64,000 bases of DNA from Streptomyces misionensis (GTDB taxonomy: Bacteria; Actinomycetota; Actinomycetes; Streptomycetales; Streptomycetaceae), in NCBI RefSeq assembly GCF_900104815.1, contig NZ_FNTD01000004.1, positions 3,178,501-3,242,500 on the forward strand. Direction: 5' to 3'. Numbering within the stretch: position 1 is the stretch's first letter; each line of letters opens with the position of its first letter. The notes under the pieces are model-generated. The model was not told the DNA's origin, made no database searches, and saw only the letters and a program-made list of their open reading frames with translations. The translations under genes and the position numbers were made by a program. This document shows positions 30,856-45,201 of this stretch, in pieces.

Positions 30856-32292
30856 TCAGGGCGTTTCCGTCCGCATCCGCGTCGTCACCCAGGCCCCGGC
30901 CAGGGCCACCACCGCCATCGGCAGGAACACGGCGGCGAAGGCGGCGGGGTGGGAGGAGGTGGTCGTCGTGGTCGCGGAGGTGCCGCCGCCGAGCGCGGCG
31001 AAGGCGGCACCGGTGGCGGCGAGCAGCAGGGCGTTGGAGAGGCCGTCGGAGATCTGGAGCGCGGCGGAGTTGGCACCGGCCTGCTCCGGCGCGGACAGGC
31101 GCAGCAGCAGCACGCTGGTGGAGGAGATCACCAGGCCCATGCCGAAGCAGCCGAAGGCCCAGGCGACGGCCACGGTCCAGGCGGGCACGGAGTGCCACAG
31201 CACGCTCGGCGCGGCCAGCAGCGCGACGGTGACCAGCAGCATCCCGCCGGTCATCAGCCGCTCCCGGTGGGGCGCCAGGCGCGGCCGGGACTGCACCCAG
31301 GAGCCCAGCGCCCAGGTGCCGCCGCCCGCGGCCAGCGAGAACCCGGCGAGCGTCGGCGACAGCCCGCGCTGGGTGACCAGCATCAGCGGCACGAAGGACT
31401 CCGCGGCGATGAAGGACCCGGCGGACAGCCCGCGCAGCAGGACGACGGCGGGCAGGCCGCGGGCCGCCCGGCAGGTGCCGGGCGGCAGCAGGCCGAGGAC
31501 GGCGGGCACCAGCAGGGCGACGCCGGCCGCGCCGGGCACGAGGGAGAGGGGGCGCAGGTCCTGGGCGGCGTACTGGAGGAGGCCGGCGCCGAGGGAGATG
31601 CCGAGGGCGAGCCGGATGCGCCGCCGGTCGAAGGCGGCGGCGCCCGCCTCCGCGTCGACCGGTCCGGACGCCCGCCGGCGTATCTGCGGCAGGGCGAGGG
31701 CCAGCGGGAACACCACGAGGACCGGGATGCCGAGGAACACCCAGCGCCAGCCGAGCTGCTCGGTGACGGCACCGGAGGCGAGCGGGCCGACGACGGAGGG
31801 CACGACCCAGCTCGCCGCGAACGCCGCCATGATCGCGGGGCGCAGCCGCTCGGGGTAGGCGCGGCCGACGACGACGTACAGCGCGACGATGACCAGTCCG
31901 CCGCCGAGCCCCTGGACGGCCCGGCCCAGGATGAACACCCACATCGTCCGCGCGGTGCCGGCTATCACCAGCCCCACCGCGAAGGCCCCGATCCCGCTGG
32001 TCAGCGCCCCGAGCGGACCGCGCCGGTCGGCCCACTGGCCGGCGAGGACCATGCCGAAGAGGCTGGTGGTGAAGTACCCGGAGAACGCGAACGCGTACAG
32101 CGCCACGCCGTCCAGCTCGCGGGCGGCGACGGGCATCGCGGTGCCCACGGCGGTCGCCTCGAAGGCGATCAGCAGGACGACGGAGACGATGCCGACGCTC
32201 AGCGCCCGGTAGGCCCGGCCGAGCACACCGCCGTCCGGCTCGACGTCTTCCTCCACCACGGCATCGGCGGCACGGGATCCCAGGACACTCAT
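30856..32292 (-). CDS. MFS drug-resistance-type exporter
   Basis: The 478-residue protein has about 14 TM segments and the MFS loop 2-3 motif GQWADRRGPLGAL. TM1 is followed by ATAVGTAMPVAARELDG, characteristic of the DHA2-like exporter group. A cytoplasmic Arg-rich loop lies in mid-protein. Start ATG 32292 (MSVLGSRAAD) is chosen over ATG/GTG codons upstream. A perfect 8-bp palindrome lies 22-45 bases before the start codon. No regulator gene is adjacent. Substrate unknown. Confidence 0.85.
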   Translation of the reverse strand: MSVLGSRAADAVVEEDVEPDGGVLGRAYRALSVGIVSVVLLIAFEATAVGTAMPVAARELDGVALYAFAFSGYFTTSLFGMVLAGQWADRRGPLGALTSGIGAFAVGLVIAGTARTMWVFILGRAVQGLGGGLVIVALYVVVGRAYPERLRPAIMAAFAASWVVPSVVGPLASGAVTEQLGWRWVFLGIPVLVVFPLALALPQIRRRASGPVDAEAGAAAFDRRRIRLALGISLGAGLLQYAAQDLRPLSLVPGAAGVALLVPAVLGLLPPGTCRAARGLPAVVLLRGLSAGSFIAAESFVPLMLVTQRGLSPTLAGFSLAAGGGTWALGSWVQSRPRLAPHRERLMTGGMLLVTVALLAAPSVLWHSVPAWTVAVAWAFGCFGMGLVISSTSVLLLRLSAPEQAGANSAALQISDGLSNALLLAATGAAFAALGGGTSATTTTTSSHPAAFAAVFLPMAVVALAGAWVTTRMRTETP

Positions 32293-32313
32293 GCCCGTCA
32301 GGGTAAGGCCCGT

Positions 32314-32337
32314 CACCGACATTGACCCCTGTCGGTG
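32314..32337. promoter_or_regulatory. Palindrome in MFS exporter promoter
   Basis: CACCGACA (32314-32321) and TGTCGGTG (32330-32337) are perfect 8-bp inverted arms with an 8-base spacer, 22-45 bases before the exporter ATG. The layout is typical of TetR/MarR operators, but no cognate regulator gene is nearby. Confidence 0.5.
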
Positions 32338-32515: not shown

Positions 32516-32590
32516 GGCCGTGTGCCCGAGTGGCTTAGGGGCTCGCCTGCAAAGCGAGTTACACGGGTTCGATTCCCGTCACGGCCTCCA
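32516..32590 (+). tRNA. tRNA-Cys (GCA)
   Basis: The acceptor stem GGCCGTG pairs fully with CACGGCC at 32580-32586, the discriminator is T73 as expected for tRNA-Cys, and CCA is encoded at 32588-32590. The anticodon stem CTCGC/GCGAG encloses loop CTGCAAA with anticodon GCA at 32549-32551. The T-arm GGGTTCGATTCCC is canonical. A candidate upstream promoter is not obvious. Confidence 0.92.
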
Positions 32591-33368: not shown

Positions 33369-34526
33369 TCAGAGCACCCCGCCCGCCTCGTCCTGGAACG
33401 TCTCGGTCCAGTAGTGCCACGTCGTGCCCGGCAGCGTGGCCGTCGGGTCGAGGGTGGTCAGGGTGTGCAGCATGGCGGCGGCCAGTTGTTCGTAGGCGGC
33501 CGTGCTGAGTTCGTGGGAGAGGTGCTGGTCGATGGTGCGTTCGTGGTGCAGCAGCCAGAGGGTGAAGGCGAGGGTGGAGACGTCGGTGTTGAGGGGGCAG
33601 AGCGCCGCCTCCGGTTCGCTGAAGGTGAGGACCGCGCCCGTGCGGCCGTCCACCACCAGGCTGTTGTCCTCCACCAGGTAGCCCAGGCGGATCAAGTGGT
33701 CGCAGTGGGCCGGGAGTTCGGACAGCGGGTAGTCGGGGCGGTCCCGGGTGAAGTGTTCGCGCAGGGTCGGCAGCGGGGCGTCCGGGTCGGCGAAGAAGAG
33801 GACCGCCTCCTCCGGCAGCCCGGTCTCGCGCAGGAAGCGGCGGGTCGGCTCGTGGGTGAGCGTGGCCGGGAAGTCGACGTCCTCGAAGCGGGCCACCCGG
33901 CCGTGCCCGAACTCCTGGTCCAGGACGCGGGCGGGCAGGTCGAGGGCGAGACCGGACGCCGTACCGGGACCCGCGACCAGGGACAGCGGGCGGATCAGGG
34001 CCGCCACCTTCCAGTACGGGGGGACCGCGCCGTCCGTGCCCTCCTCGAACAGGGCGAGCAGGCGGCGCGAGGCCTCGGCGACCGTCCTCGGGCCGTACTG
34101 GCCCGCCAGGGAGGCGAACCGGCCGCGCAGGCCCGTCAGTTCCTCGGTGACCGCGGCGAACCGCAGCAGCGTGGCCAGGGACGGCGCGAAGGGGCGGGAC
34201 TCGGACGGGTCGCACAGGTAGGCCGTCGTCACCTCGCCCGTGTCGCCGTCGAGCAGGATCGACTCGCGCTCCGTGCCCGGCGGGTTGAGCAGTTCGCCTA
34301 TCACCAGGCGGTCGCGCAGTTCCTCCGCCAGGTGGAGCGGGCCTTCGGCCGCGTCCGCGAGGGTGCGCAGGCCGTGGGCGCGCAGCGGCGAGAACGTCAG
34401 CACGTCGGTCACGGCGGGCAGCCCCGGGCCCGTGAGCAGTCCGCGCGTCGGCGCGTGGGTGACATGGCGGTCCAGCTCCGCCTCGGTCAGTGTGATCGCC
34501 GCCGTCCCGGCATCCGTCGTACTCAT
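33369..34526 (-). CDS. Tandem SUKH-4-like protein
   Basis: The 385-residue protein is made of two similar halves. THAPTRGLLTGPGLP (about 23-37) recurs as THEPTRRFLRETGLP (about 222-236). In both halves this is followed by an ExLxDxLVIGxLL or HLIRLGYLVED strand and a DGxTGxVxT/LxF strand. This pattern resembles the SUKH-4 family, used as immunity proteins of polymorphic toxins. I infer the family from motif memory, not from a search. No toxin gene is adjacent. GGGGGAG precedes the ATG by 3 bases. An in-frame extension to 34703 is rejected as low-complexity. Confidence 0.6.
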   Translation of the reverse strand: MSTTDAGTAAITLTEAELDRHVTHAPTRGLLTGPGLPAVTDVLTFSPLRAHGLRTLADAAEGPLHLAEELRDRLVIGELLNPPGTERESILLDGDTGEVTTAYLCDPSESRPFAPSLATLLRFAAVTEELTGLRGRFASLAGQYGPRTVAEASRRLLALFEEGTDGAVPPYWKVAALIRPLSLVAGPGTASGLALDLPARVLDQEFGHGRVARFEDVDFPATLTHEPTRRFLRETGLPEEAVLFFADPDAPLPTLREHFTRDRPDYPLSELPAHCDHLIRLGYLVEDNSLVVDGRTGAVLTFSEPEAALCPLNTDVSTLAFTLWLLHHERTIDQHLSHELSTAAYEQLAAAMLHTLTTLDPTATLPGTTWHYWTETFQDEAGGVL

Positions 34527-34725
34527 CGCTCCCCCGCGATCTCCCACTGCGTGACAGTGTGGCCGGCGCCGCTGCCCGGCTCCCCCACCGCTGTGCACAC
34601 TACGCCGCCCCACTGACAACGCCCCTCGACGGAAAGGACGCCGGACGACCCGGGCACGTTGCCCCGCGAAACCCACCGGGATGGGGACGGCCGCCGCGCT
34701 CACCGGATCACGGCGGCCGCCGCGT

Positions 34726-37035
34726 TCACCGCGTCGTGACGACCGCGGCCTGGGGACGGATCGGCAGCCGGTTGACCGGGCGGCCGGTGGCCGCGCGGAC
34801 GGCGGAGGCGATGGCCGCGGGGGCCGTCACCACCGGCACCGCGCTGACCGACTTGGCACCGAAGGGCGCGACCACGTCCCGCTCCTCCACCAGCTTGACG
34901 ATCCGGATGTCCGGCGCGTCCAGGGCGGTCGGCAGGGCGTAGCCGGTCAGGTCGGGATGGCGGACCAGCCCGCGCGGGGTGCGCAGGTTCTCGGTGAGCG
35001 CGATGCCGACGCCCTGGGTGACGCCCGCCTCGATCCGGGCCGCCAGCTGGGCGGGGTTGAGCACCCGGCCGACGTCCTGGGCGACCGCCAGCTCCACCAC
35101 CCGGACCGAGCCCAGCTCGATGTCCACGTCCACCACCGCGCGGATCGCGCAGAACGCGAGTCCCACGAAGGCGTCGCCCTGCCCGGCGGCGTCCAGCGGC
35201 TCGGTCGGGTGCGGGCGGCACTGCGCGGTGGCCCACAGCTCCTTGCCGTCCAGCGCCTCGGTGACCGTGGTCGACAGCACCCCGTCGTACGACGTGATCT
35301 TGCCGTCGTTGATCTGGAGCAGCTCGGTCGACATGCCGAACTTGTGCGCGAGCGGCTGGAGCAGCTGGGTGCGGACCATCTTCGCCGCCCGCTCCACCGC
35401 GCCGCCGGACACCCAGGTGTGCCGGCCCCGGCAGCCCGCGCCGGACGGCGGCTGGTCGGTGTCGACCGGGGCGACCCGGACCTCCTCGATGCCCAGGGTC
35501 TCCTGGACGATCTGCCGGGCCAGCGTGGTGAAGCCCTGGCCGGTCTCCACGGCCGCGCAGAGCACGGTCGCCATGCCGTCGTGCACCTTGACCGTCGCCG
35601 TGGACACCTCGTCGGCGCCCTCCGCGCCGAGCATGTGCACCATGCCGAGGCCGTAGCCGACGCCCCGGCGCACCGCCTCCGGCTCGCCCGCGCCCTCGGG
35701 GCCGCCGGGCAGCAGCCAGTCCTCCTCGGGCGTGTCCTTGGGCAGCGTCGGCAGCGGGAAGTCCCGTACCGCCTGGAGGAGTTCGGCGACCGGGGCGGGG
35801 CAGGTCACCGTCTGGCCGATGGGCAGCACGTCGCCCGTCGCCAGCACGTTGCGCAGCCGCAGCTCGGCCGGGTCCGCGCCCAGCTTCCTGGCCAGCTTGT
35901 CCATCTGGGCCTCGTAGGCGGCGCACACCTGCATCGCGCCCTCGCCGCGCACATGGCCGGAGGGCGGGTTGTTGGTGCGCACGGCCCAGCCCTCGATGAA
36001 GGCGTTCGGGACGACGTACGGGCCGCACGCGAAGGAGACGGCGGCCGCCAGCGCGTCGGCGGAGGTGTCTGCGTACGCGCCCGCGTCCAGCAGGATCTGC
36101 GCCTCCACCTTGACCAGCCGGCCCTCGGCGTCGGCGTGGTGGCGGTAGCGCAGCAGGGTGGGGTGGCGGTGGACGTGGCCGAGGAAGGACTCCTCGCGGC
36201 TCGCGGTGAGCTTCACCGGGCAGCCGGTGCGCAACGCGAGCAGCCCGAGCGGGAGCTGGAAGCCCTGGTCCTCGCGGTCGGCGGTGGCGCCGGGCACCCC
36301 GGTGACCACGATCTTCACTCGATCGGGTGACAGACCGAAGCAGGCGGCGGCGGTGTTGCGGTCGTGGTGCGGGTCGGTGGAGGCCAGGTACAGCTCCACA
36401 CCGCCGTCGGGGCGCGGCACGGCGAGTCCGGCCTCGGCGCCGATCGGGGCCGGGTCCTGCCGCCCGATGCGGTACAGCCCCTCGACCACGACCTCGCCGA
36501 CCGCCTCCGCGTCGCCGTGGCGCAGCGGGATGTGCCGGATCAGGTTGCCGTCGGGGTGCAGCGGCTCCGCCTCGAACGCCTGCTCGGGGTCGGTCACCGG
36601 GTCGAGGATCTCGTACTCGACGATGATCGCGGCCGCGGCCATCCGCGCGGTGTCGGGGTGGTCGGCGGCGACGGCGGCGATGGGCTCGCCGTGGTGCCGT
36701 ACGACCTCGGAGGCGAACACCGGCCGGTCCGGGGTGCCCCGGCCGTGGCGCGGGGTGCCGGGCACGTCCTCGTGGGTGATGACGGCGCGCACGCCGGGCA
36801 TCTCGCGGGCGTGCCGGGTGTCGATGGACACGATCCGCGCGTGCGCGTGCGGGGAGCGCAGTACGGCCGCCCAGAGCAGGCCCTCGGCCCACAGGTCGGC
36901 GGCGTAGGGGAAGGTGCCCTCGGTCTTGGCGCGGGCGTCGGCGTGCGGCAGGGAGACGCCGAGGCCGTGCGGCGGGCCCTCGGGCTCGGGGGCGGACTCC
37001 CCGGCGGGGGTCGCGGTGGCGGCTTCGTTGCTCAC
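34726..37035 (-). CDS. Molybdenum-hydroxylase large subunit, non-canonical active site
   Basis: The 769-residue protein is of the xanthine dehydrogenase/CO dehydrogenase large-subunit family. It has the N-terminal ALDH_Xan_dh_C region (RVSLPHADARAKTEGTFPY-like start, HARIVSIDTRHAREMPGVRAVIT), REESFLGHVHRHP, and VRGEGAMQVCAAYE in place of RGFGxPQ. Two hallmarks are absent. The cofactor motif GGGFGGK is replaced by GVPGATADRED (about 249-259). The C-terminal catalytic GVGE is replaced by SVSA, with Ala732 where the Glu base should be. GTG 37035 overlaps the 2Fe-2S gene stop by four bases (GTGA). The last gene of a three-gene operon. Canonical xanthine oxidation is doubtful. Confidence 0.85.
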   Translation of the reverse strand: MSNEAATATPAGESAPEPEGPPHGLGVSLPHADARAKTEGTFPYAADLWAEGLLWAAVLRSPHAHARIVSIDTRHAREMPGVRAVITHEDVPGTPRHGRGTPDRPVFASEVVRHHGEPIAAVAADHPDTARMAAAAIIVEYEILDPVTDPEQAFEAEPLHPDGNLIRHIPLRHGDAEAVGEVVVEGLYRIGRQDPAPIGAEAGLAVPRPDGGVELYLASTDPHHDRNTAAACFGLSPDRVKIVVTGVPGATADREDQGFQLPLGLLALRTGCPVKLTASREESFLGHVHRHPTLLRYRHHADAEGRLVKVEAQILLDAGAYADTSADALAAAVSFACGPYVVPNAFIEGWAVRTNNPPSGHVRGEGAMQVCAAYEAQMDKLARKLGADPAELRLRNVLATGDVLPIGQTVTCPAPVAELLQAVRDFPLPTLPKDTPEEDWLLPGGPEGAGEPEAVRRGVGYGLGMVHMLGAEGADEVSTATVKVHDGMATVLCAAVETGQGFTTLARQIVQETLGIEEVRVAPVDTDQPPSGAGCRGRHTWVSGGAVERAAKMVRTQLLQPLAHKFGMSTELLQINDGKITSYDGVLSTTVTEALDGKELWATAQCRPHPTEPLDAAGQGDAFVGLAFCAIRAVVDVDIELGSVRVVELAVAQDVGRVLNPAQLAARIEAGVTQGVGIALTENLRTPRGLVRHPDLTGYALPTALDAPDIRIVKLVEERDVVAPFGAKSVSAVPVVTAPAAIASAVRAATGRPVNRLPIRPQAAVVTTR

Positions 37036-39611
37036 GCCTGGCCTCCGTCCTGGCCGTAGTGCTGGTCGTGCGGGCCCGGCGTGCCGTAGGGCGGCGTGTC
37101 GCCGTAGCCGTCGGGCGCCTCGCCGTAGCCGCCCGGCATGTCGCCGTACCCGTCCGGCGTGGGCGGCGGCGTGTCGAAGGCACCCGGTGCCTCGAACGCC
37201 GACGGGCCGACGCCGCCGGAGCCGGGGCCCGCCTGCTGCGGGATGCGCGCCTCGCCCGCCGTGTCCGCCTCCGGCTCGGGGGCGTGCGCGGCCTCGCGCT
37301 CGGCGACGACCTCCTGGACGGCCTGGACGACGCCCCGGTACCCGGAGCAGCGGCACAGGTTGCCGCACAGGGCCTGCCGGGTCTCCAGTTCGGTCGGCGC
37401 GGGGTTGCCCTCCAGCAGGTCGTGCACCGTCATCGCCATGCCGGGCACGCAGAAGCCGCACTGCACGGCACCGCACCGGGCCAGCGCCCGCTGCACGTCG
37501 GAGGGTTGCCCGTCCTTGGCCAGGCCCTCGACCGTGCGCACCTCGGTGCCGGCCGCGGTGACGGCGGGCACCAGGCAGGAGGCCACCAGGCGGCCGTCCA
37601 CCTGCACGTTGCAGGCCCCGCACTCGCCCTGCGAGCAGCCGTCCTTGGCCCCGGCGAGCCCCAGCCGCTCGCGCAGCACGTACAGCAGCGACTCGCCGAT
37701 CCAGGCGTCGGCGACCCGGCGGTCGGAGCCGTTCACCCGCAGGACGTAGGAGGCGAGGGGGTGGTCGTCGTGGGGCGGGAGGGGGGCGGGCTCCTCCGGG
37801 GCGTCCGGGGTGTCCGGCGCGTCCGAGGTGTCCGGGGTGCCGGGAGCCTCGGGGGCGCCGAGGGCGGACTCGGCGGATTCGGCGGGCTGTTCGGGCCCTC
37901 CGGACGGCCCTGACGGCTCGGACGGCTCGGTCTGTCCCGGCTGTTCGGGCCGCTCGGCCAGGTCGTGGGGTTCCTGCCGGGCGCCGTCCGCGGGCGCGGC
38001 CTCCGGGACGTCCTGGACGGCGTGTTCCGGGGTGCTGGGCGGAGCCACCGGCGTGTCGCCGTCGTGCGCCGGAGCGGGGACGGTGGGTACGCCGGAGGGG
38101 GGCGTGGGCGTGTCGGACCGCTGGCCGGGCACGGCGGGCGCGGACGCGCCGGTGCGCTGCTCCGGTACGACCGGTGCGGTCGGGGCGGCGCCGGCCTCCG
38201 GGACCGCGGCGTCCCCCGCGTCCGCCGCCGCGTCCGGTGCGGCGGCGGCCGTACCGGGCTCCATGACGGCCTCGGGCACGGCACCCGGCTCGGCGGGGGC
38301 CGTGTGGTCCGCCGGGCCGTCGACGGGCCGCTCAGGGGCCGTCGCGGGGTCGTGCGCGGTCTGCTCCAGGGGGACACCGGCGGGCGGCGTGTGGTGCGCC
38401 TCCTGCGCGCGCCCGTCCCGCGCGTGGGCGCCGGGCGTGGAGTACGGCGATGCGCCGGGCGCCGACGGGTCGTGGGCGGCGTCGGCGTGCTCCGGCGGGG
38501 TGTGGCCCGGCTCCACCGGGGCCGGTCCGGGGTGCCCGGTGTGCCGGTGCGCGGCCTCCGCGTGTCCCGGCTGCCCCTGCCCGGCCTGGCCGAGCGGGTC
38601 CTCTATCCGGTCGTCGTGTCCGTGCGCGGCGTGTTCCCGCGCACCCTGGCCGTGCGGGTCGTGCGCGGGCGCGCCGTCGGGCCGGGCGGGCTGCTCGTAC
38701 GCCCCCTGGCCGTACGCGCCCGGCGCGGCACCACCCTGCGGGCCCGCGCCGTGCGCTCCGGCGTGCCGGCCCTGCGCGTGACCGGCCTGCGGGTGACCTG
38801 CCTGCGTCTGTTCGGCCTGCGGATGACCGGCCTGCGGGTCCGCGCCCTGCGCGTGTCCGTACCCGTCGTGCGTGTCCACGCCCGGCACCGGAGCGGCGTA
38901 CGCGCCCTGCGCGCGCCCCGCGCCGAAGTCCTCGTCGCCCGGGTGTTCCCCGGCCCCCGCGCCGTACACCTCTCCCGGCACACCACCGGTCCCGCCGTAC
39001 GTCTCCCCCGGCGCGCCCCCGGCCTCCGTGCCGTACCCCTCGCCGGTCGCGTACCCGTCCGCCGCCGGGGCCGCCGGCCCGGCCGCCTGCCCCCAGGGCT
39101 GGCCGGCGTTGGTGGCCCAGGGGGCCGGCGCGCCGCCCGGCAGGGTGGCCGGCGGGGTGCCGCCCCACTGCTCCACCAGGGACGACGTCGTGAACTCGCC
39201 CGACTCGTCCGGGAGTTCTCCGCCGGCGACGGGGATGGACCACTGCCCGGTGACGTCGTGGCCGGGCGCGGCCGGAGCCGCGGGCTCCTCGAAGGTCCAG
39301 TGCTGGGTGGCGGCCGGGTCGTACGTGAACCGGTCGTCCGCGCCCCCGTGCGTCGCGCCCGGGTCGGGCCACCCACCGCCGTCCGCGGCGGGCCAGCCCC
39401 CGGCGGCGCCCTCCGCGGGGGCCTGCGGGATGCGCGGCGGCACATAGCCGTGGCCGGGCGCGGCCAGCGGGCTGTCGCCGGACAGCAGGGCGTCTATGCC
39501 GCCCTCGGGGAGCTTGACGAAGGCGGTGGCGCCGTCGTCGTAGTCACCCGGCAGCGGGTTCCAGCGCCCGCCGCCCTCGGGCGTGCCCTCTCCGTGCTGG
39601 TCGTCGGTCAC
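37032..39611 (-). CDS. 2Fe-2S subunit of molybdenum hydroxylase with giant low-complexity extension
   Basis: The 859-residue protein is much longer than the usual 150-200 for this subunit. Residues 1 to ~605 are Pro/Ala/Gly/His/Glu-rich and disordered-looking, with His-Ala-Gln repeats (AGHPQAGHAQGRHAG). The ferredoxin-like module is at ~610-770 and intact: plant-type cluster Cys in GCSQGECGAC plus a fourth Cys, and the second cluster in CGFC...CGNLCRC. A Tyr/Gly/Pro-rich tail of ~90 residues follows. It overlaps both neighbours by four bases (start GTG 39611 within the FAD gene stop; stop within the Mo gene start), so translational coupling is expected. Confidence 0.85.
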   Translation of the reverse strand: MTDDQHGEGTPEGGGRWNPLPGDYDDGATAFVKLPEGGIDALLSGDSPLAAPGHGYVPPRIPQAPAEGAAGGWPAADGGGWPDPGATHGGADDRFTYDPAATQHWTFEEPAAPAAPGHDVTGQWSIPVAGGELPDESGEFTTSSLVEQWGGTPPATLPGGAPAPWATNAGQPWGQAAGPAAPAADGYATGEGYGTEAGGAPGETYGGTGGVPGEVYGAGAGEHPGDEDFGAGRAQGAYAAPVPGVDTHDGYGHAQGADPQAGHPQAEQTQAGHPQAGHAQGRHAGAHGAGPQGGAAPGAYGQGAYEQPARPDGAPAHDPHGQGAREHAAHGHDDRIEDPLGQAGQGQPGHAEAAHRHTGHPGPAPVEPGHTPPEHADAAHDPSAPGASPYSTPGAHARDGRAQEAHHTPPAGVPLEQTAHDPATAPERPVDGPADHTAPAEPGAVPEAVMEPGTAAAAPDAAADAGDAAVPEAGAAPTAPVVPEQRTGASAPAVPGQRSDTPTPPSGVPTVPAPAHDGDTPVAPPSTPEHAVQDVPEAAPADGARQEPHDLAERPEQPGQTEPSEPSGPSGGPEQPAESAESALGAPEAPGTPDTSDAPDTPDAPEEPAPLPPHDDHPLASYVLRVNGSDRRVADAWIGESLLYVLRERLGLAGAKDGCSQGECGACNVQVDGRLVASCLVPAVTAAGTEVRTVEGLAKDGQPSDVQRALARCGAVQCGFCVPGMAMTVHDLLEGNPAPTELETRQALCGNLCRCSGYRGVVQAVQEVVAEREAAHAPEPEADTAGEARIPQQAGPGSGGVGPSAFEAPGAFDTPPPTPDGYGDMPGGYGEAPDGYGDTPPYGTPGPHDQHYGQDGGQA

Positions 39612-40501
39612 GACAGCGCCCTCCCCAGTGCTCGTCGGGCCAGCGCGGCGACGGTGCGCCGCAGGTGCAGTACGGCGGGCGGCAGCGACGGCACCGAGCC
39701 GTCCGCCTCCGGCGCCGGGTCGGGGATGCAGGCCGCGGCGACGTACTCGCCGAAGGCACTCAGTGCCTCGGGGACGAGCGCGCGGTCGTTGTCCCAGTCG
39801 ATGAGCTGCGCGACCCACTGCTCGGCCTCCAGCGGCCGCAGCGGCATCGGCGCGATGGCCCCGACGGCGCAGCGCACGCCGCGCCGGGCGGGGTCGAGGA
39901 CGAGCGCCACGGAGGCGAGGGCGCGGCCGGGTCCGGTGCGCGCGGTGGCCTTCAGGAAGACCTGCGGGGCGTGCAGCAGCGGCACCCGTACGAAGCCGAT
40001 GAGTTCACCGCCGCCCAGCATCTCCACGCCCGCCAGCAGGTGCGAGACCGGGACCTCCCGGCGTGCCCCGCCCGGGCCCGCGACGATCAGCGTGGCCTCC
40101 AGGGCGGCGAGCACCGGGAGCGCGTCCCCGGTGGGCGCGGCGGAGGCGATGTTGCCGCCCAGGGTGCCCGCGTTGCGGATGTGCGGCGGGCCCGCGGCGC
40201 GGGCGGCGGCGGCGAGCGCCGGGATGAGGGCCGCGAAGTCGGGGCGGCCCATGCGGGCGTGGGTGAGGCCGGCGCCGAGCAGCGCGTGGCCGTCCTGGTA
40301 CTGCCAGCCGCGGATCTCGCTGATCCGGCCGAGGCCGACCAGGGCCGCGGGCCTGAGCTGCCCGGAGTTGACGGCGGCCATCAGGTCGGTGCCGCCCGCG
40401 ACGGGGACCGCGGTGGGCATCGCGGCGAGCGCCGCCACCGCCTCGTCCAGCGTCGTGGGCAGCGTGACGGCCTGCCCCGCCTGCGGTGCGTGCGTGGTCA
40501 A
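39608..40501 (-). CDS. FAD-binding subunit of molybdenum hydroxylase
   Basis: This 297-residue medium (CoxM/XdhB-like) subunit carries electrons from the 2Fe-2S clusters to FAD. The FAD sites are clear: VPVAGGTDLMAAVNSGQ and RNAGTLGGNIASAAPTGDALP. A CO-dehydrogenase flavoprotein C-terminal domain follows (ATARTGPGRALASVALVLD). The TTG start at 40501 is preferred because GGAAGGGG lies 8 bases upstream and TTHAPQAGQAVTLPTTLDEA fits the family. First gene of the FAD - 2Fe-2S - Mo operon. A 12-bp inverted repeat lies about 170 bases upstream. Confidence 0.88.
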   Translation of the reverse strand: MTTHAPQAGQAVTLPTTLDEAVAALAAMPTAVPVAGGTDLMAAVNSGQLRPAALVGLGRISEIRGWQYQDGHALLGAGLTHARMGRPDFAALIPALAAAARAAGPPHIRNAGTLGGNIASAAPTGDALPVLAALEATLIVAGPGGARREVPVSHLLAGVEMLGGGELIGFVRVPLLHAPQVFLKATARTGPGRALASVALVLDPARRGVRCAVGAIAPMPLRPLEAEQWVAQLIDWDNDRALVPEALSAFGEYVAAACIPDPAPEADGSVPSLPPAVLHLRRTVAALARRALGRALS

Positions 40502-40793: not shown

Positions 40794-42476
40794 CTACCTG
40801 TTGGGCGGCGGTCCGTCGATCGGGCGGCCCGGCACCCCGGGGCGCCGCTGCCACGGCCGGGGCCCGGCGGGCGGCCGGTAGGCGACGCCCAGGGCGTCAA
40901 GTCGCCGGTAGTGCGCGGTCATCCGGCGCTCGAACCGGGCGAAGTCCCGGTCCGCGGGGGCCGGCAGCCGGCTCCAGGCGACCTCGGCGAAGGCGGCGAG
41001 CCGGGGAAACGCCTGGTAGTCCACGCGCCCGGCGTCCTCCAGGGCCTCGGTCCACACATTGGCCTGGGTGCCGAGCACATGCCGCGCCTCGGCCTCGGTG
41101 AGGGCGGCCGGCACGGGCTCGAACCGGTAGACGTCCTCCAGGGTGCGCACGAAGCCGATCGGCACCGGCTCGTCGTCGCCGGGGGCCTGGCGGTGGTCCA
41201 GGTACACGTGCTGCTCGGGGCACATGACCACGTCGTGCCCGGCCCGGGCGGCGGTGACCCCGCCCTCGAAACCGCGCCACGAGGAGACCGCGGCGCCCGG
41301 CGCGAGGCCGCCCTGGAGGATCTCGTCCCAGCCGATCAGCCGGCGTCCGCGCGCGGCGAGCCAGGTGTCGAAGTGCCGGACGAACCAGGACTGGAGCTGG
41401 TCCTCGTCGGCGAGCCCCAGCTCGGCGATGCGCGCCTGGGCGGCCGACGACTTCTGCCACTGGTCCTTCGGGCATTCGTCGCCACCGATGTGGATGAACC
41501 GTGAGGGGAACATCTCCAGGACCTCCTCGAACACCCCTTCGTAAAACCGCAGGGTGCCGTCGGTGGGAGCCAGTACGTTGGAGTTGATCCCCCAGGTGTC
41601 CCAGACGGAGAGGGCCGTGGTGTCGATGACGTCGGTGTTGCCGAGTTCCGGGTACGCGGCGATGGCCGCCTGCGAATGGCCGGGCACGTCGATCTCCGGT
41701 ACGACGGTGATGTGCCGCTCGGCCGCGTAGGCGACGATCTCCCGGATGTCGTCCTGGGTGTAGTAGCCCCCGTGCGGCTTGTCCTCCCACAGCGGTGAGG
41801 CCCGGTGCCCGAACTTCGTCCGGGACCGCCAGGAGCCGGTCTCGGTCAGCTTCGGGTAGCGCCTGATCTCGATCCGCCAGCCCTGGTCGTCCGTCAGGTG
41901 CAGATGCAGCACGTTGAGTTTGTGCGCGGCCATCAGGTCGAGATAGCGCAGCACCCCGTCCTTGGGCATGAAGTGCCGCGCCACGTCGAGCAGCAGCCCG
42001 CGCCAGGCGAACCGGGGGCTGTCCTCGACGGTGACGGCGGGGAACTCCCATGCGGCGCGGTCGCCGATCGGGGCGCGCCGGAAGGCGTCGGGCCCGAGCA
42101 GCTGCCGGAGGGTCTGCGCGCCCTGGAAGAGTCCGGCCGCGCTCGCCCCGTCGAGTTCGATCCGCCGGCCCTCGGCGCGCAGGCGGTAGGACTCGGGGCC
42201 GCCGAGCTCGTCCGCGAGCGCGGGCACGATCCGCAGCCGGATGCGGCCGGCGCCGTCGCGGTACGGCGCGAGCGGCAGCCCGGTGGCCGCGCCGACGGCC
42301 GAGCGCAGCCAGCGCGCCACCCGTTCGGCGCCCTCGCCGGCGTCGATCTCCGTGTCCGTGTCGATCACACAGCGGGCGCCGGGCACCGAGATCCGGACCG
42401 GCGCCGGAATCAGCGCCACCGCCCCGGACTCCGGGGAATCGGCCGGAACCGGCCCCTTGTCGCTCATGTCACTCAT
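40794..42476 (-). CDS. Beta-N-acetylhexosaminidase (GH20)
   Basis: This 560-residue GH20 enzyme removes terminal GlcNAc from chitooligosaccharides. It has the N-terminal GH20b domain (ALIPAPVRISVPGA) and the TIM barrel with FAWRGLLLDVARHFMPKDGVLRYLDLMAAHKLNVLHLHLTDDQGW. The catalytic Asp-Glu pair lies in FIHIGGDECP. No signal peptide is visible at the chosen start (ATG 42476, MSDMSDKGP), so it would be cytoplasmic, acting on imported oligosaccharides. The ribosome-binding GGAGG is 13 bases off. It fits functionally with the nag transporters at the left of the window. Confidence 0.9.
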   Translation of the reverse strand: MSDMSDKGPVPADSPESGAVALIPAPVRISVPGARCVIDTDTEIDAGEGAERVARWLRSAVGAATGLPLAPYRDGAGRIRLRIVPALADELGGPESYRLRAEGRRIELDGASAAGLFQGAQTLRQLLGPDAFRRAPIGDRAAWEFPAVTVEDSPRFAWRGLLLDVARHFMPKDGVLRYLDLMAAHKLNVLHLHLTDDQGWRIEIRRYPKLTETGSWRSRTKFGHRASPLWEDKPHGGYYTQDDIREIVAYAAERHITVVPEIDVPGHSQAAIAAYPELGNTDVIDTTALSVWDTWGINSNVLAPTDGTLRFYEGVFEEVLEMFPSRFIHIGGDECPKDQWQKSSAAQARIAELGLADEDQLQSWFVRHFDTWLAARGRRLIGWDEILQGGLAPGAAVSSWRGFEGGVTAARAGHDVVMCPEQHVYLDHRQAPGDDEPVPIGFVRTLEDVYRFEPVPAALTEAEARHVLGTQANVWTEALEDAGRVDYQAFPRLAAFAEVAWSRLPAPADRDFARFERRMTAHYRRLDALGVAYRPPAGPRPWQRRPGVPGRPIDGPPPNR

Positions 42477-42635
42477 GTGGTCCGCCGCACCTCCACGCTC
42501 GCGTTGCACCATGCGCAACGGCCGTTTCGCTCTGTACAACCAGTCGATGGACAGGGAGGCTAGGTGCCCCGCTTCCCGCCCACAAGAGGTCTCGACCACT
42601 CGGACGCGTGACACGAGCAAGCCCCGGCACGGCGA

Positions 42636-42671
42636 AGGGCCCCGGCGCGCACCGAAGCGCACCGGGGCCCT
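42636..42671 (-). terminator. DUF3039 gene terminator
   Basis: AGGGCCCCGG (42636-42645) and CCGGGGCCCT (42662-42671) close a stem continued by an inner GCGC/GCGC pair, forming a strong hairpin 26 bases after the stop. Confidence 0.8.
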
Positions 42672-42697: not shown

Positions 42698-42988
42698 TTA
42701 CTTGCCCTTGCCCTTGTCGCCGCCCTTGTCGTCGCCGCCGCTGCCCATGGACTCGTAGATCTCCTTGCACATGGGGCACACGGGGTACTTCTTCGGGTCG
42801 CGGCCCGGCACCCAGACCTTGCCGCACAGCGCCACGACGGGGGTGCCGTCGAGGGCGCTCGCCATGATCTTGTCCTTCTGGACGTAGTGGGCGAAGCGCT
42901 CGTGGTCGCCGTCGCCGTGGGACACCTGTGGCGTCGGCTCTACGAGGGTCCCCGTACCAGTCCCGCGCTCGGGCTCAAGAGTGCTCAT
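42698..42988 (-). CDS. DUF3039 protein
   Basis: The 96-residue small protein has the actinobacterial DUF3039 core DHERFAHYVQKDKIMASALDGTPVVALCGKVWVPGRDPKKYPVCPMCKEIY. The Cys pattern C...CPMC suggests a bound zinc. It ends in a Lys/Gly/Asp-rich tail. Start ATG 42988 yields the family N-terminus MSTLEPERG. The YqgE gene lies just upstream (28 bases) on the same strand, indicating co-transcription. Function unknown; a zinc-ribbon role in nucleic-acid binding is a guess. Confidence 0.85.
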   Translation of the reverse strand: MSTLEPERGTGTGTLVEPTPQVSHGDGDHERFAHYVQKDKIMASALDGTPVVALCGKVWVPGRDPKKYPVCPMCKEIYESMGSGGDDKGGDKGKGK

Positions 42989-43016
42989 ACCGCCAGGGTA
43001 CTGAAGCGCCCGGCCA

Positions 43017-43598
43017 TCAGTTGAGCGAAGGGTCGTCCGGATATGTGGCCACCATCGCCAGCTCGCTGCGCTGGCGCCGCAGCACCTCGCGCCACAGCCG
43101 CTCCGGGGCCGGCGAGGAGACGTCGCCCGGTTCGGACTCGACGACGTACCAGGCACCCTCGGCCAGCTCGTCCTCCAGCTGGCCCGGGCCCCAGCCCGCG
43201 TACCCGGCGAAGATGCGCAGGGAACCGAGGACCGGGGCGAGCAGCTCCGGCGGCGCCTCCAGGTCGACCAGGCCGATCGCGCCGTGCACCCGCCGCCAGC
43301 CCAGCGGGGCCCCTTCGCCGTTCGCCCCGCCCGGGACGACCGCGACGCCCAGAGCCGAGTCCAGCGAGACGGGACCGCCCTGGAAGACGACGCCGGGCTC
43401 GCCGGTCAGCTCGGCCCAGCCCGCCAGGATGTCGCCGACGCCCACGGGGGTGGGGCGGTTCAGGACGACACCGAGGGAACCCTCCTCGTCGTGGTCGAGG
43501 AGGAGCACCACCGCGCGGTCGAAGTTCGGGTCCGCCAGGGCGGGGGTGGCCACGAGCAGCCGCCCTGTGAGCGAGGACACCTCGGTCATGCCAGACAT
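43017..43598 (-). CDS. YqgE/AlgH family protein
   Basis: The 193-residue protein has the YqgE signature: LTGRLLVATPALADPNFDRAVVLLLDHDEEGSLGVVLNRPT and FAGYAGWGPGQLEDELAEGAWYVV. The fold is known, but the role is not firmly established in any species. ATG 43598 (MSGMTEVSS) has GGAAG about 9 bases upstream; ATG 43589 is an alternative. It is divergent from murA across about 260 bases and is upstream of the DUF3039 gene. Confidence 0.88.
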   Translation of the reverse strand: MSGMTEVSSLTGRLLVATPALADPNFDRAVVLLLDHDEEGSLGVVLNRPTPVGVGDILAGWAELTGEPGVVFQGGPVSLDSALGVAVVPGGANGEGAPLGWRRVHGAIGLVDLEAPPELLAPVLGSLRIFAGYAGWGPGQLEDELAEGAWYVVESEPGDVSSPAPERLWREVLRRQRSELAMVATYPDDPSLN

Positions 43599-43860
43599 GA
43601 TCCCGCATCTTCCCCGGGAGTGGGGAGCCAATCGGAGTGCGGGAGTGAACGCAGCTCAGGGAGCACGGAAGCGGCCCCGGCGCACGCGCGCGACCGGTGA
43701 CCCCATGTGCCCGATCAAGGACGTTTCGTGTTGTGACACACCCATGACACGGCGGGGCGGTCCGCGGACTTACGGGCGGGGGGTGATCGGCGATTACCCT
43801 GTCCCACGGCCCGCCCGGTGATCGGCGGTCCCCTGCCCATCTGATCGGAACGCGAGATTC

Positions 43861-45201
43861 ATGACCGTCAACGACGATGTCCTGCTTGTCCACGGCGGAA
43901 ACCCGCTTGAGGGCGAGATCCGTGTCCGCGGTGCGAAGAACCTCGTACCGAAGGCCATGGTCGCCGCGCTGCTCGGCAGCGCGCCGAGCCGGCTGCGCAA
44001 CGTTCCGGACATCCGTGACGTGCGCGTCGTACGCGGCCTGCTCCAGTTGCACGGGGTGACGGTCCGTCCGGGCGAGGAGCCCGGCGAGCTGGTACTCGAC
44101 CCGACCCATGTCGAGAGCGCCAACGTCGCTGACATCGATGCCCACGCCGGCTCCAGCCGTATCCCGATCCTGTTCTGCGGCCCGCTGCTGCACCGGCTCG
44201 GGCACGCGTTCATCCCCGGTCTCGGCGGCTGTGACATCGGCGGCCGGCCCATCGACTTCCACTTCGACGTGCTGCGCCAGTTCGGCGCGACCATCGAGAA
44301 GCGCGCGGACGGCCAGTACCTGGAGGCGCCGAAGGGGCTGCGGGGCACGAAGATCCGGCTGCCGTACCCGTCCGTGGGCGCGACCGAGCAGGTGCTGCTG
44401 ACGGCCGTGCTGGCCGAGGGCGTCACGGAGCTGTCCAACGCGGCGGTCGAGCCGGAGATCGAGGACCTCATCTGCGTGCTGCAGAAGATGGGCGCGATCA
44501 TCGCGATGGACACCGACCGGACCATCCGGATCACCGGTGTGGACAAGCTGAGCGGCTACACCCACCGGGCCCTGTCGGACCGCCTGGAGGCCGCCTCCTG
44601 GGCCTCGGCGGCGCTCGCGACCGGCGGCAACATCTACGTCCGCGGCGCCCAGCAGCGCTCGATGATGACGTTCCTGAACACCTACCGCAAGGTGGGCGGC
44701 GCCTTCGAGATCGACGACGAGGGCATCCGCTTCTGGCACCCGGGCGGCCAGCTGAAGTCCATCGCCCTGGAGACGGACGTGCACCCCGGTTTCCAGACCG
44801 ACTGGCAGCAGCCGCTGGTGGTGGCCCTCACCCAGGCCACGGGCCTGTCGATCATCCACGAGACGGTCTACGAGTCCCGGCTCGGCTTCACCTCGGCCCT
44901 CAACCAGATGGGCGCGCACATCCAGCTGTACCGCGAGTGCCTGGGCGGCTCGGACTGCCGCTTCGGCCAGCGCAACTTCCTGCACTCCGCGGTCGTCTCC
45001 GGGCCGACCCGGCTCCAGGGCGCCGACCTGGTCATCCCCGACCTGCGCGGCGGCTTCTCCTACCTGATCGCCGCGCTCGCGGCCGAGGGCACCTCCCGGG
45101 TCCACGGCATCGACCTGATCAACCGCGGCTACGAGAACTTCATGGAGAAGCTCGTGGAGCTCGGCGCCAAGGTCGAGCTGCCGGGCAAGGCCCTCGGCTG
45201 A
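43861..45201 (+). CDS. murA: UDP-N-acetylglucosamine 1-carboxyvinyltransferase
   Basis: The 446-residue EPSP-synthase-fold enzyme catalyses the first committed step of peptidoglycan synthesis, moving enolpyruvate from PEP to UDP-GlcNAc. The active-site Cys is present in GLGGCDIGGRPID, so it would be fosfomycin-sensitive by this criterion. N-terminal RVRGAKNLVPKAMVAALL is the substrate-binding KN motif. Neighbours hup and the malic enzyme match the SCO2949-2951 order. A strong terminator follows. Confidence 0.94.
   Translation: MTVNDDVLLVHGGNPLEGEIRVRGAKNLVPKAMVAALLGSAPSRLRNVPDIRDVRVVRGLLQLHGVTVRPGEEPGELVLDPTHVESANVADIDAHAGSSRIPILFCGPLLHRLGHAFIPGLGGCDIGGRPIDFHFDVLRQFGATIEKRADGQYLEAPKGLRGTKIRLPYPSVGATEQVLLTAVLAEGVTELSNAAVEPEIEDLICVLQKMGAIIAMDTDRTIRITGVDKLSGYTHRALSDRLEAASWASAALATGGNIYVRGAQQRSMMTFLNTYRKVGGAFEIDDEGIRFWHPGGQLKSIALETDVHPGFQTDWQQPLVVALTQATGLSIIHETVYESRLGFTSALNQMGAHIQLYRECLGGSDCRFGQRNFLHSAVVSGPTRLQGADLVIPDLRGGFSYLIAALAAEGTSRVHGIDLINRGYENFMEKLVELGAKVELPGKALG

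Follow-up and report, generated by a model that had tools for sequence, protein, structure and literature searches.

A PucD-type molybdenum hydroxylase operon of Streptomyces misionensis without the catalytic glutamate

The stretch of DNA analysed here, hereafter the window, comprises 64,000 nucleotides of the Streptomyces misionensis genome and contains, on its reverse strand, an operon coding for the three subunits of a complex of the xanthine oxidase (molybdenum hydroxylase) superfamily. The molybdenum-type (Mo) large subunit (34726..37035), a PucD-like protein of 769 amino acids, carries Ala732, the sequence GVPGATADRED at residues 246-256, RGEG at residues 363-366, and Arg667. The gene of the iron-sulfur (Fe-S) subunit (37032..39611) encodes 859 amino acids, in which an N-terminal, low-complexity extension of about 617 residues precedes a domain for two [2Fe-2S] clusters that has the complete set of eight ligand cysteines. 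The gene of the subunit binding flavin adenine dinucleotide (FAD; 39608..40501), for which a TTG start at 40501 is assumed, a GTG 27 bases upstream being also possible, contains the motifs AGGTDLM and IRNAGTLGGN. The Mo and Fe-S genes overlap by four bases (37032-37035), and so do the Fe-S and FAD genes (39608-39611), as had been reported in the first-pass annotation, an earlier reading made from the letters of the DNA.

Three large-subunit domains were detected by Pfam in the 769-residue protein (Ald_Xan_dh_C, MoCoBD_1 and MoCoBD_2), and both the domains and the predicted fold are those of the superfamily. The small subunit has the eight conserved cysteines of two [2Fe-2S] clusters, which we take to be the ligands, and the FAD-binding subunit has its characteristic motifs; the earlier statement that the Fe-S and FAD motifs of the partners of the large subunit are intact is borne out. 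The best NCBIfam match of the large subunit is PucD (TIGR03196, xanthine dehydrogenase subunit D), with 660.4 bits, a score that does not reach the curated cut-off of 783.65. This cut-off was considered as a marker of lost function and rejected, since a Glu-bearing paralogue of the same genome also falls below it. Five other genes (seven matches) of the 8.47 Mb host genome resemble this protein; its closest database proteins, among the matches listed, belong to Streptomyces, and the database orthologues are widely labelled as members of the xanthine dehydrogenase family. Two hallmarks of the superfamily are missing from it: the catalytic general-base glutamate near the C-terminus and the GGxFG cofactor loop.

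For the analysis of these positions, two database sets were used, one formed by the window protein and the best 120 of its 7799 matches (121 sequences), and the other by the best 120 listed relatives of one Glu-bearing orthologue. In addition, 68 rows of the window's own type (A-type, or Ala-type), the window included, were read from whole genomes, the remaining orthologues being judged by score. HMMER aligns Ala732, with no gap, opposite Glu869 of the Desulfovibrio gigas aldehyde oxidoreductase (AOR; 1sij), which agrees with the previous proposals that Ala732 stands at the place of the catalytic Glu and that the motif has been lost rather than shifted. Residue 732 is Ala in 119 of the 121 sequences, Ser in one and Arg in another, the C-terminus of this last row being out of register; it is Ala in 66 and Ser in two of the genome rows, and Glu in all 120 Glu-bearing relatives.

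The glycine loop, GVPGATADRED in the window, corresponds without gaps to GVGGAFGARED in the three rows of an outside family (f9) and to GVGGAFGQRGD in a second family of the same order (f44). Since these Glu-bearing relatives from the same locus align gaplessly over the loop, the changes G248P and F251T are real. Residue 248 is Pro in 119 and Ala in two of the 121 sequences, versus Gly in the whole Glu-bearing set (120/120), and residue 251 is Thr (88), Met (19), Ser (12), Val (1) or Leu (1), versus an equally constant Phe (120/120); at residue 252, 42 of the 68 genome rows have Ala and 19 still have Gly. The replacement of a GGAFG-type loop had been recognised in the first-pass annotation, which placed it at residues 249-259 instead of 246-256, and the conservation of both substitutions among orthologues, there proposed as a check, is seen in the frequencies of Ala732 and Pro248. 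When aligned directly to 1sij by HMMER, this loop is displaced by one residue (T251 against T421). A shift of the alignment at the motifs was ruled out, as the close relatives connect them gaplessly and T251 stands at the conserved Phe, also when P0122 is compared with 1sij.

Beyond what had been noted before, two other changes are fixed in the pocket, Phe365Glu and Gln667Arg. Residue 365 is Glu in 121/121 database sequences and 68/68 genome rows, versus Phe in 119 and Leu in one of the Glu-bearing set, and residue 667 is Arg in 121/121, versus Gln in 120/120; their counterparts in AOR are Tyr535 and Gln807. Both Glu codons are used at position 365 (GAG in 59 and GAA in eight of 67), so this residue is maintained at the protein level. 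From the common RGFG motif, we take residue 365 to occupy the position of Phe914 in bovine xanthine oxidase. Contact with the substrate is described for F914 in xanthine oxidase, and for the equivalent Phe in AOX3, in PMC3864932. In the 112 rows compared, exactly one carboxylate is always found among positions 365 and 732, namely Glu732 in 35 (canonical proteins, f9, f44 and paralogue), Asp732 in nine and Glu365 in 68. The objection named in the first-pass annotation, orthologues with a Glu at the equivalent site, applies in part: Glu365 lies at a substrate-contact position, and the older orthologues of this locus have their Glu. The only f44 locus read (L136, genome G549) has RGHG instead of RGFG, with the Glu kept, and RGHG is also found in 1rm6.

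Residues 193, 251, 363 and 667, together with the Gln preceding the CGFC motif of the Fe-S subunit, are presumably cofactor contacts. Residues 193, 363, 369 and 538 are invariant in both database sets, and Gln500 is found in 114 of the 121 sequences. Among the 68 genome rows, Gln193 is kept in 65, Arg363 in 66, Gln369 in 67 (His in the other), Arg538 in 68, Gln500 in 60 (Ser or Glu in the other eight) and the Gln before CGFC in 66. The conservation of Gln193, Arg363 and this last Gln would fit a bound pterin in the window's lineage, though the four other paralogues of the same genome have not retained Gln193 either. In a third family of the same order (f45), Gln193, Gln369, Gln500, Arg538 and the Gln before CGFC have all been lost (5/5 rows), which would fit an empty pocket there, and a fuller loss seems to have happened in this sister family. 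According to PMC2671166, the Glu-to-Gln variant of mouse AOX1 has no detectable activity and keeps the molybdenum cofactor (Moco) at 60%, versus 70% in the wild type, so that Ala732 alone speaks against hydroxylation and not against cofactor binding. In the predicted structure of the large subunit the fold is retained, and the cofactor loops are of low confidence.

None of the eight Fe-S ligand cysteines varies in the lineages read, one of the 68 A-type rows being incomplete. The FAD motifs are kept in the A-type patterns listed, with AGATD in place of AGGTD in some rows and six rows lacking coverage of the motif, and depart in part in the rows of f45 and of the Embleya-type lineage described below. 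The long extension of the Fe-S subunit, which had not been noted in the first-pass annotation, opens with a conserved motif, YD..ATAFV(K/Q)LP ... LAAPGHGYVPP, for which a role as a targeting or phospho-threonine-type signal is a speculation; no credible second match to it was found in the same genome (next best E 0.03). If the first start codon close to the FAD stop is taken as its beginning, the extension of other Ala-type orthologues is 14 to 1610 residues long, and the group typified by L089-L101 has short extensions (14-84) in which the motif is missing.

Regarding distribution, a class-wide draw of 393 genomes (threshold E 1e-120; the listing of genomes with no match is incomplete) gave a match in 122. 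In the 44 of these belonging to the same genus, an orthologue was found at no less than 77% identity each, one of them divided between two contigs; the remaining matches listed are at 55% identity or lower. Within the family, 192 of 200 genomes (17 genera) have the orthologue, 189 at E=0, two at 64-68% identity, one of these with an insertion, and one split. In seven others, belonging to two genera, the best match lies between E 1e-197 and E 1e-200, the four that were read being 50-51% identical, and in one genome, of 1290 contigs, only the canonical paralogue was seen. In the order, one f44 genome has an orthologue at 57% identity, and those of f45 (five read) are at 39-40%. In ten of the 200 genomes of the family, one match alone passes the threshold used, the A-type gene as judged by score; since it stands alone in them, this gene is not kept merely as a partner of the paralogue. 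As side observations, L084 (G406) is an orthologue with Glu365 and Ala732 that has about 100 extra residues around query residues 431-441, and for L093, L095, L098, L100 and L101 the search of the genomes reported one in-frame TGA apiece, which probably lies before the start codon, the open frames being intact over the domain.

Residue 732 follows lineage, being Glu in f9 and f44, Ala or Ser in the lineage of the window, and Asp in f45 and in the Embleya-type rows, these last from a genus (g126) that is probably Embleya: the named loci closest to it, Embleya hyalina, E. scabrispora and Streptomyces sp. SID3343, all have Asp, and the other 77 of the 80 loci retained out of 135 have Phe365 and Glu732. 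In a tree built with the motif columns removed, f9 (Glu) branches first, then f44 (Glu, His365), and then a clade (support 100/99) that joins the Ala lineage, the Embleya type (Asp) and f45 (Asp). The two Asp lineages are joined with support 88/59, flagged as possible long-branch attraction. Arg667 is present in 68/68 Ala, 4/4 Embleya-type and 5/5 f45 rows and in 0/35 other rows, and as it is common to all the degenerate lineages it suggests one early event, in which the Glu might have been lost in their stem. The outcomes at 732 are different, however, Ala in one lineage and Asp in the others. The ratio of nonsynonymous to synonymous substitution rates (dN/dS) is 0.05-0.22 in ten pairs of orthologues. 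The tree, the synteny, this ratio and the conserved Fe-S ligands all support the earlier suggestion of a distinct branch whose operon is maintained.

The loci are tied together by the common neighbours MurA, YqgE, DUF3039, malic enzyme and a transporter of the major facilitator superfamily (MFS), no stretch beyond the family showing all of them; one f9 locus has YqgE, DUF3039 and MFS, and two have MFS only. In the window, the synteny markers upstream of the operon are a family-20 hexosaminidase (40794..42662, reverse strand), a marker within Streptomycetaceae, a DUF3039 protein (42698..43000, reverse), a YqgE/AlgH-like protein (43017..43631, reverse) and, on the forward strand, the open reading frame 43861..45201, which from its sequence we take to be MurA. 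Directly downstream of the Mo subunit lies a gene resembling SUKH-4 immunity proteins (33369..34703, reverse), followed, near the downstream end of the cluster, by tRNA-Cys(GCA) (32516-32590, forward) and by the MFS transporter (30856..32322, reverse). Homologues of the transporter occur downstream of the Mo subunit in the three f9 loci, in the f44 locus, where the Glu is intact, and in several Streptomycetaceae, with none in those parts of the f45 loci that were read; the transporter may be functionally linked to the operon. No gene for an XdhC/PucA-type chaperone was found in the 64-kb window. XdhC is likewise missing at the Glu-bearing f9 and f44 loci and, within the short stretches fetched, at many canonical ones, and among the five other Mo-hydroxylase genes of the genome there are two, near 7556232 and 6909315, that lack an XdhC match in their vicinity. 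The missing XdhC was therefore rejected as proof that Moco is absent.

The counterpart in Streptomyces coelicolor is probably SCO2940, matched by name and by nearness to SCO2951 (malate oxidoreductase), not by sequence. It is listed as a putative oxidoreductase, or "xanthine dehydrogenase, putative", in a re-analysis of microarray data and isobaric tags for relative and absolute quantitation (iTRAQ; PMC3770449), and SCO2939, numbered next to it, is given as a hypothetical protein among the sigma-E regulon targets tabulated in PMC6767563. A xanthine dehydrogenase is mentioned in PMC13118837 among the genes of Streptomyces synteny clusters, the excerpts giving no details that would identify the gene at 34726-37035. 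A description of the remodelled branch was not found in searches of an open-access library; the earlier notion of an undescribed system stands as far as function in that library is concerned, and falls short in that the proteins are widely annotated.

The interpretation that we favour, and regard as fairly probable, is that the operon encodes a three-subunit complex with a rebuilt Mo pocket, in which Glu-assisted hydroxylation would no longer take place and the electron relay would be kept. It takes up the observed loss of the base, fixed pocket changes, Fe-S ligands, FAD motifs, synteny and constraint, together with a fold obtained from a model. As judged from sequence, this is a vertically inherited branch in which the Mo pocket was rebuilt and the relay stayed. 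Its ancestor would be an ancient molybdenum hydroxylase operon of the PucD type, with FAD, Fe-S and Mo genes, at the murA/yqgE locus, of which the window operon would be the Streptomycetaceae form. The pocket may have been rebuilt in a stem common to the two other degenerate lineages, by the change of Gln667 to Arg and the loss of Phe251 and Phe365, the catalytic Glu732 presumably becoming Ala in the lineage of the window and Asp elsewhere. The assembly, with its two [2Fe-2S] clusters and FAD, is retained under purifying selection, and could now act in electron transfer or redox sensing as a flavo-iron-sulfur complex whose pocket would hold an altered ligand, or the cofactor in an altered setting; the mostly kept Gln193, Arg363 and Gln before CGFC leave it possible that Moco is still bound. 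Several points weigh against this interpretation. Glu365 could take over from the lost base; the superfamily is variable at position 365 (Tyr in 1sij, His in 1rm6, Ala or Pro in own-genome paralogues), so that a change there need not kill activity; among the 68 rows, three have Ala193, two have Pro or His instead of Arg363, and one has Phe251; the low-confidence cofactor loops come from a model of the window protein alone; the absence of XdhC nearby lends no support to a loss of Moco; and the PucD cut-off fails to separate the two types, the Glu-bearing paralogue (774.8) and f44 (781.1) both scoring below 783.65.

That Glu365 replaces Glu732 in an enzyme which binds Moco and remains catalytic, with a different substrate geometry or reaction, seems unlikely, in spite of its invariance with both codons in use, of the single carboxylate shared by positions 365 and 732 in every row, of the presumed cofactor contacts retained, and of the substrate contact made by the equivalent Phe of xanthine oxidase and AOX3 (PMC3864932); the tree shows the shift to 365 just once, on one branch, Gln667 and Phe251 were lost too, and with Ala or Ser at 732 nothing fills the usual Mo-OH contact. 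A broader version, to which we give little credence, would be an order-wide re-engineering in which the carboxylate, in Streptomycetaceae, left the Mo-OH side (732) for the substrate face (365) and, with the Gln-to-Arg change in the cofactor pocket, gave a Mo/pterin site of a chemistry not yet known. The joint loss of Gln667, Phe251 and Glu732, the low-confidence loops and the f45 losses would also agree with a Mo subunit devoid of Moco that serves only to keep the Fe-S and FAD parts together or to bind a partner protein; this is quite improbable for the lineage of the window, where the conservation of Gln193, Arg363, Gln369, Arg538, Gln500 and the Gln before CGFC is hard to explain if nothing is bound. 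As for a decaying pseudo-operon, or an artefact of sequencing or alignment, the missing catalytic residues could suggest it, but the presence of the orthologue in nearly all the family genomes examined, the low dN/dS, both motifs aligned gaplessly with close relatives, and the listing of the probable counterpart SCO2940 in the combined data set (PMC3770449) make it very improbable.

Molybdenum hydroxylases are considered to depend on the general-base Glu, and its mutation in mouse AOX1 abolished activity (PMC2671166). The lineage of the window, found in nearly all the family genomes examined, has lost this base in nature and yet keeps a whole electron-transfer operon under selection, Glu-bearing orthologues of the same locus surviving outside it. 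The Glu, Asp and Ala lineages offer a ready-made evolutionary series for testing a molybdenum hydroxylase without its base, and point to a broadly conserved redox complex of antibiotic-producing bacteria, now labelled xanthine dehydrogenase in databases.

Among known systems, the PucD-type large subunit (TIGR03196), represented by the positional orthologue of f9, shares with the window its FAD, Fe-S, Mo gene order, its domains and its neighbours, with an identity of about 50-53%, whereas the window protein lacks Glu732, Phe251, Phe365 and Gln667; the f9 orthologue scores 816 bits, above the PucD cut-off, and the window protein 660. The PucD-like paralogue of the same genome (C4:6315840-6318158, L002), of the same fold family and about 45% identical, differs in its canonical motifs GVGGAFGGRED, RGFG and GIGE and in an adjoining XdhC gene. 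AOR, with Glu869 at the place of Ala732, and the Rhodobacter capsulatus xanthine dehydrogenase (1jro) are grouped together among the closest known systems. Among solved structures, the best sequence match of the window protein is 4-hydroxybenzoyl-CoA reductase (1rm6), a member of the family whose reaction is other than hydroxylation, and which has a Glu (PFGAKEASE) where the window protein has Ala732.
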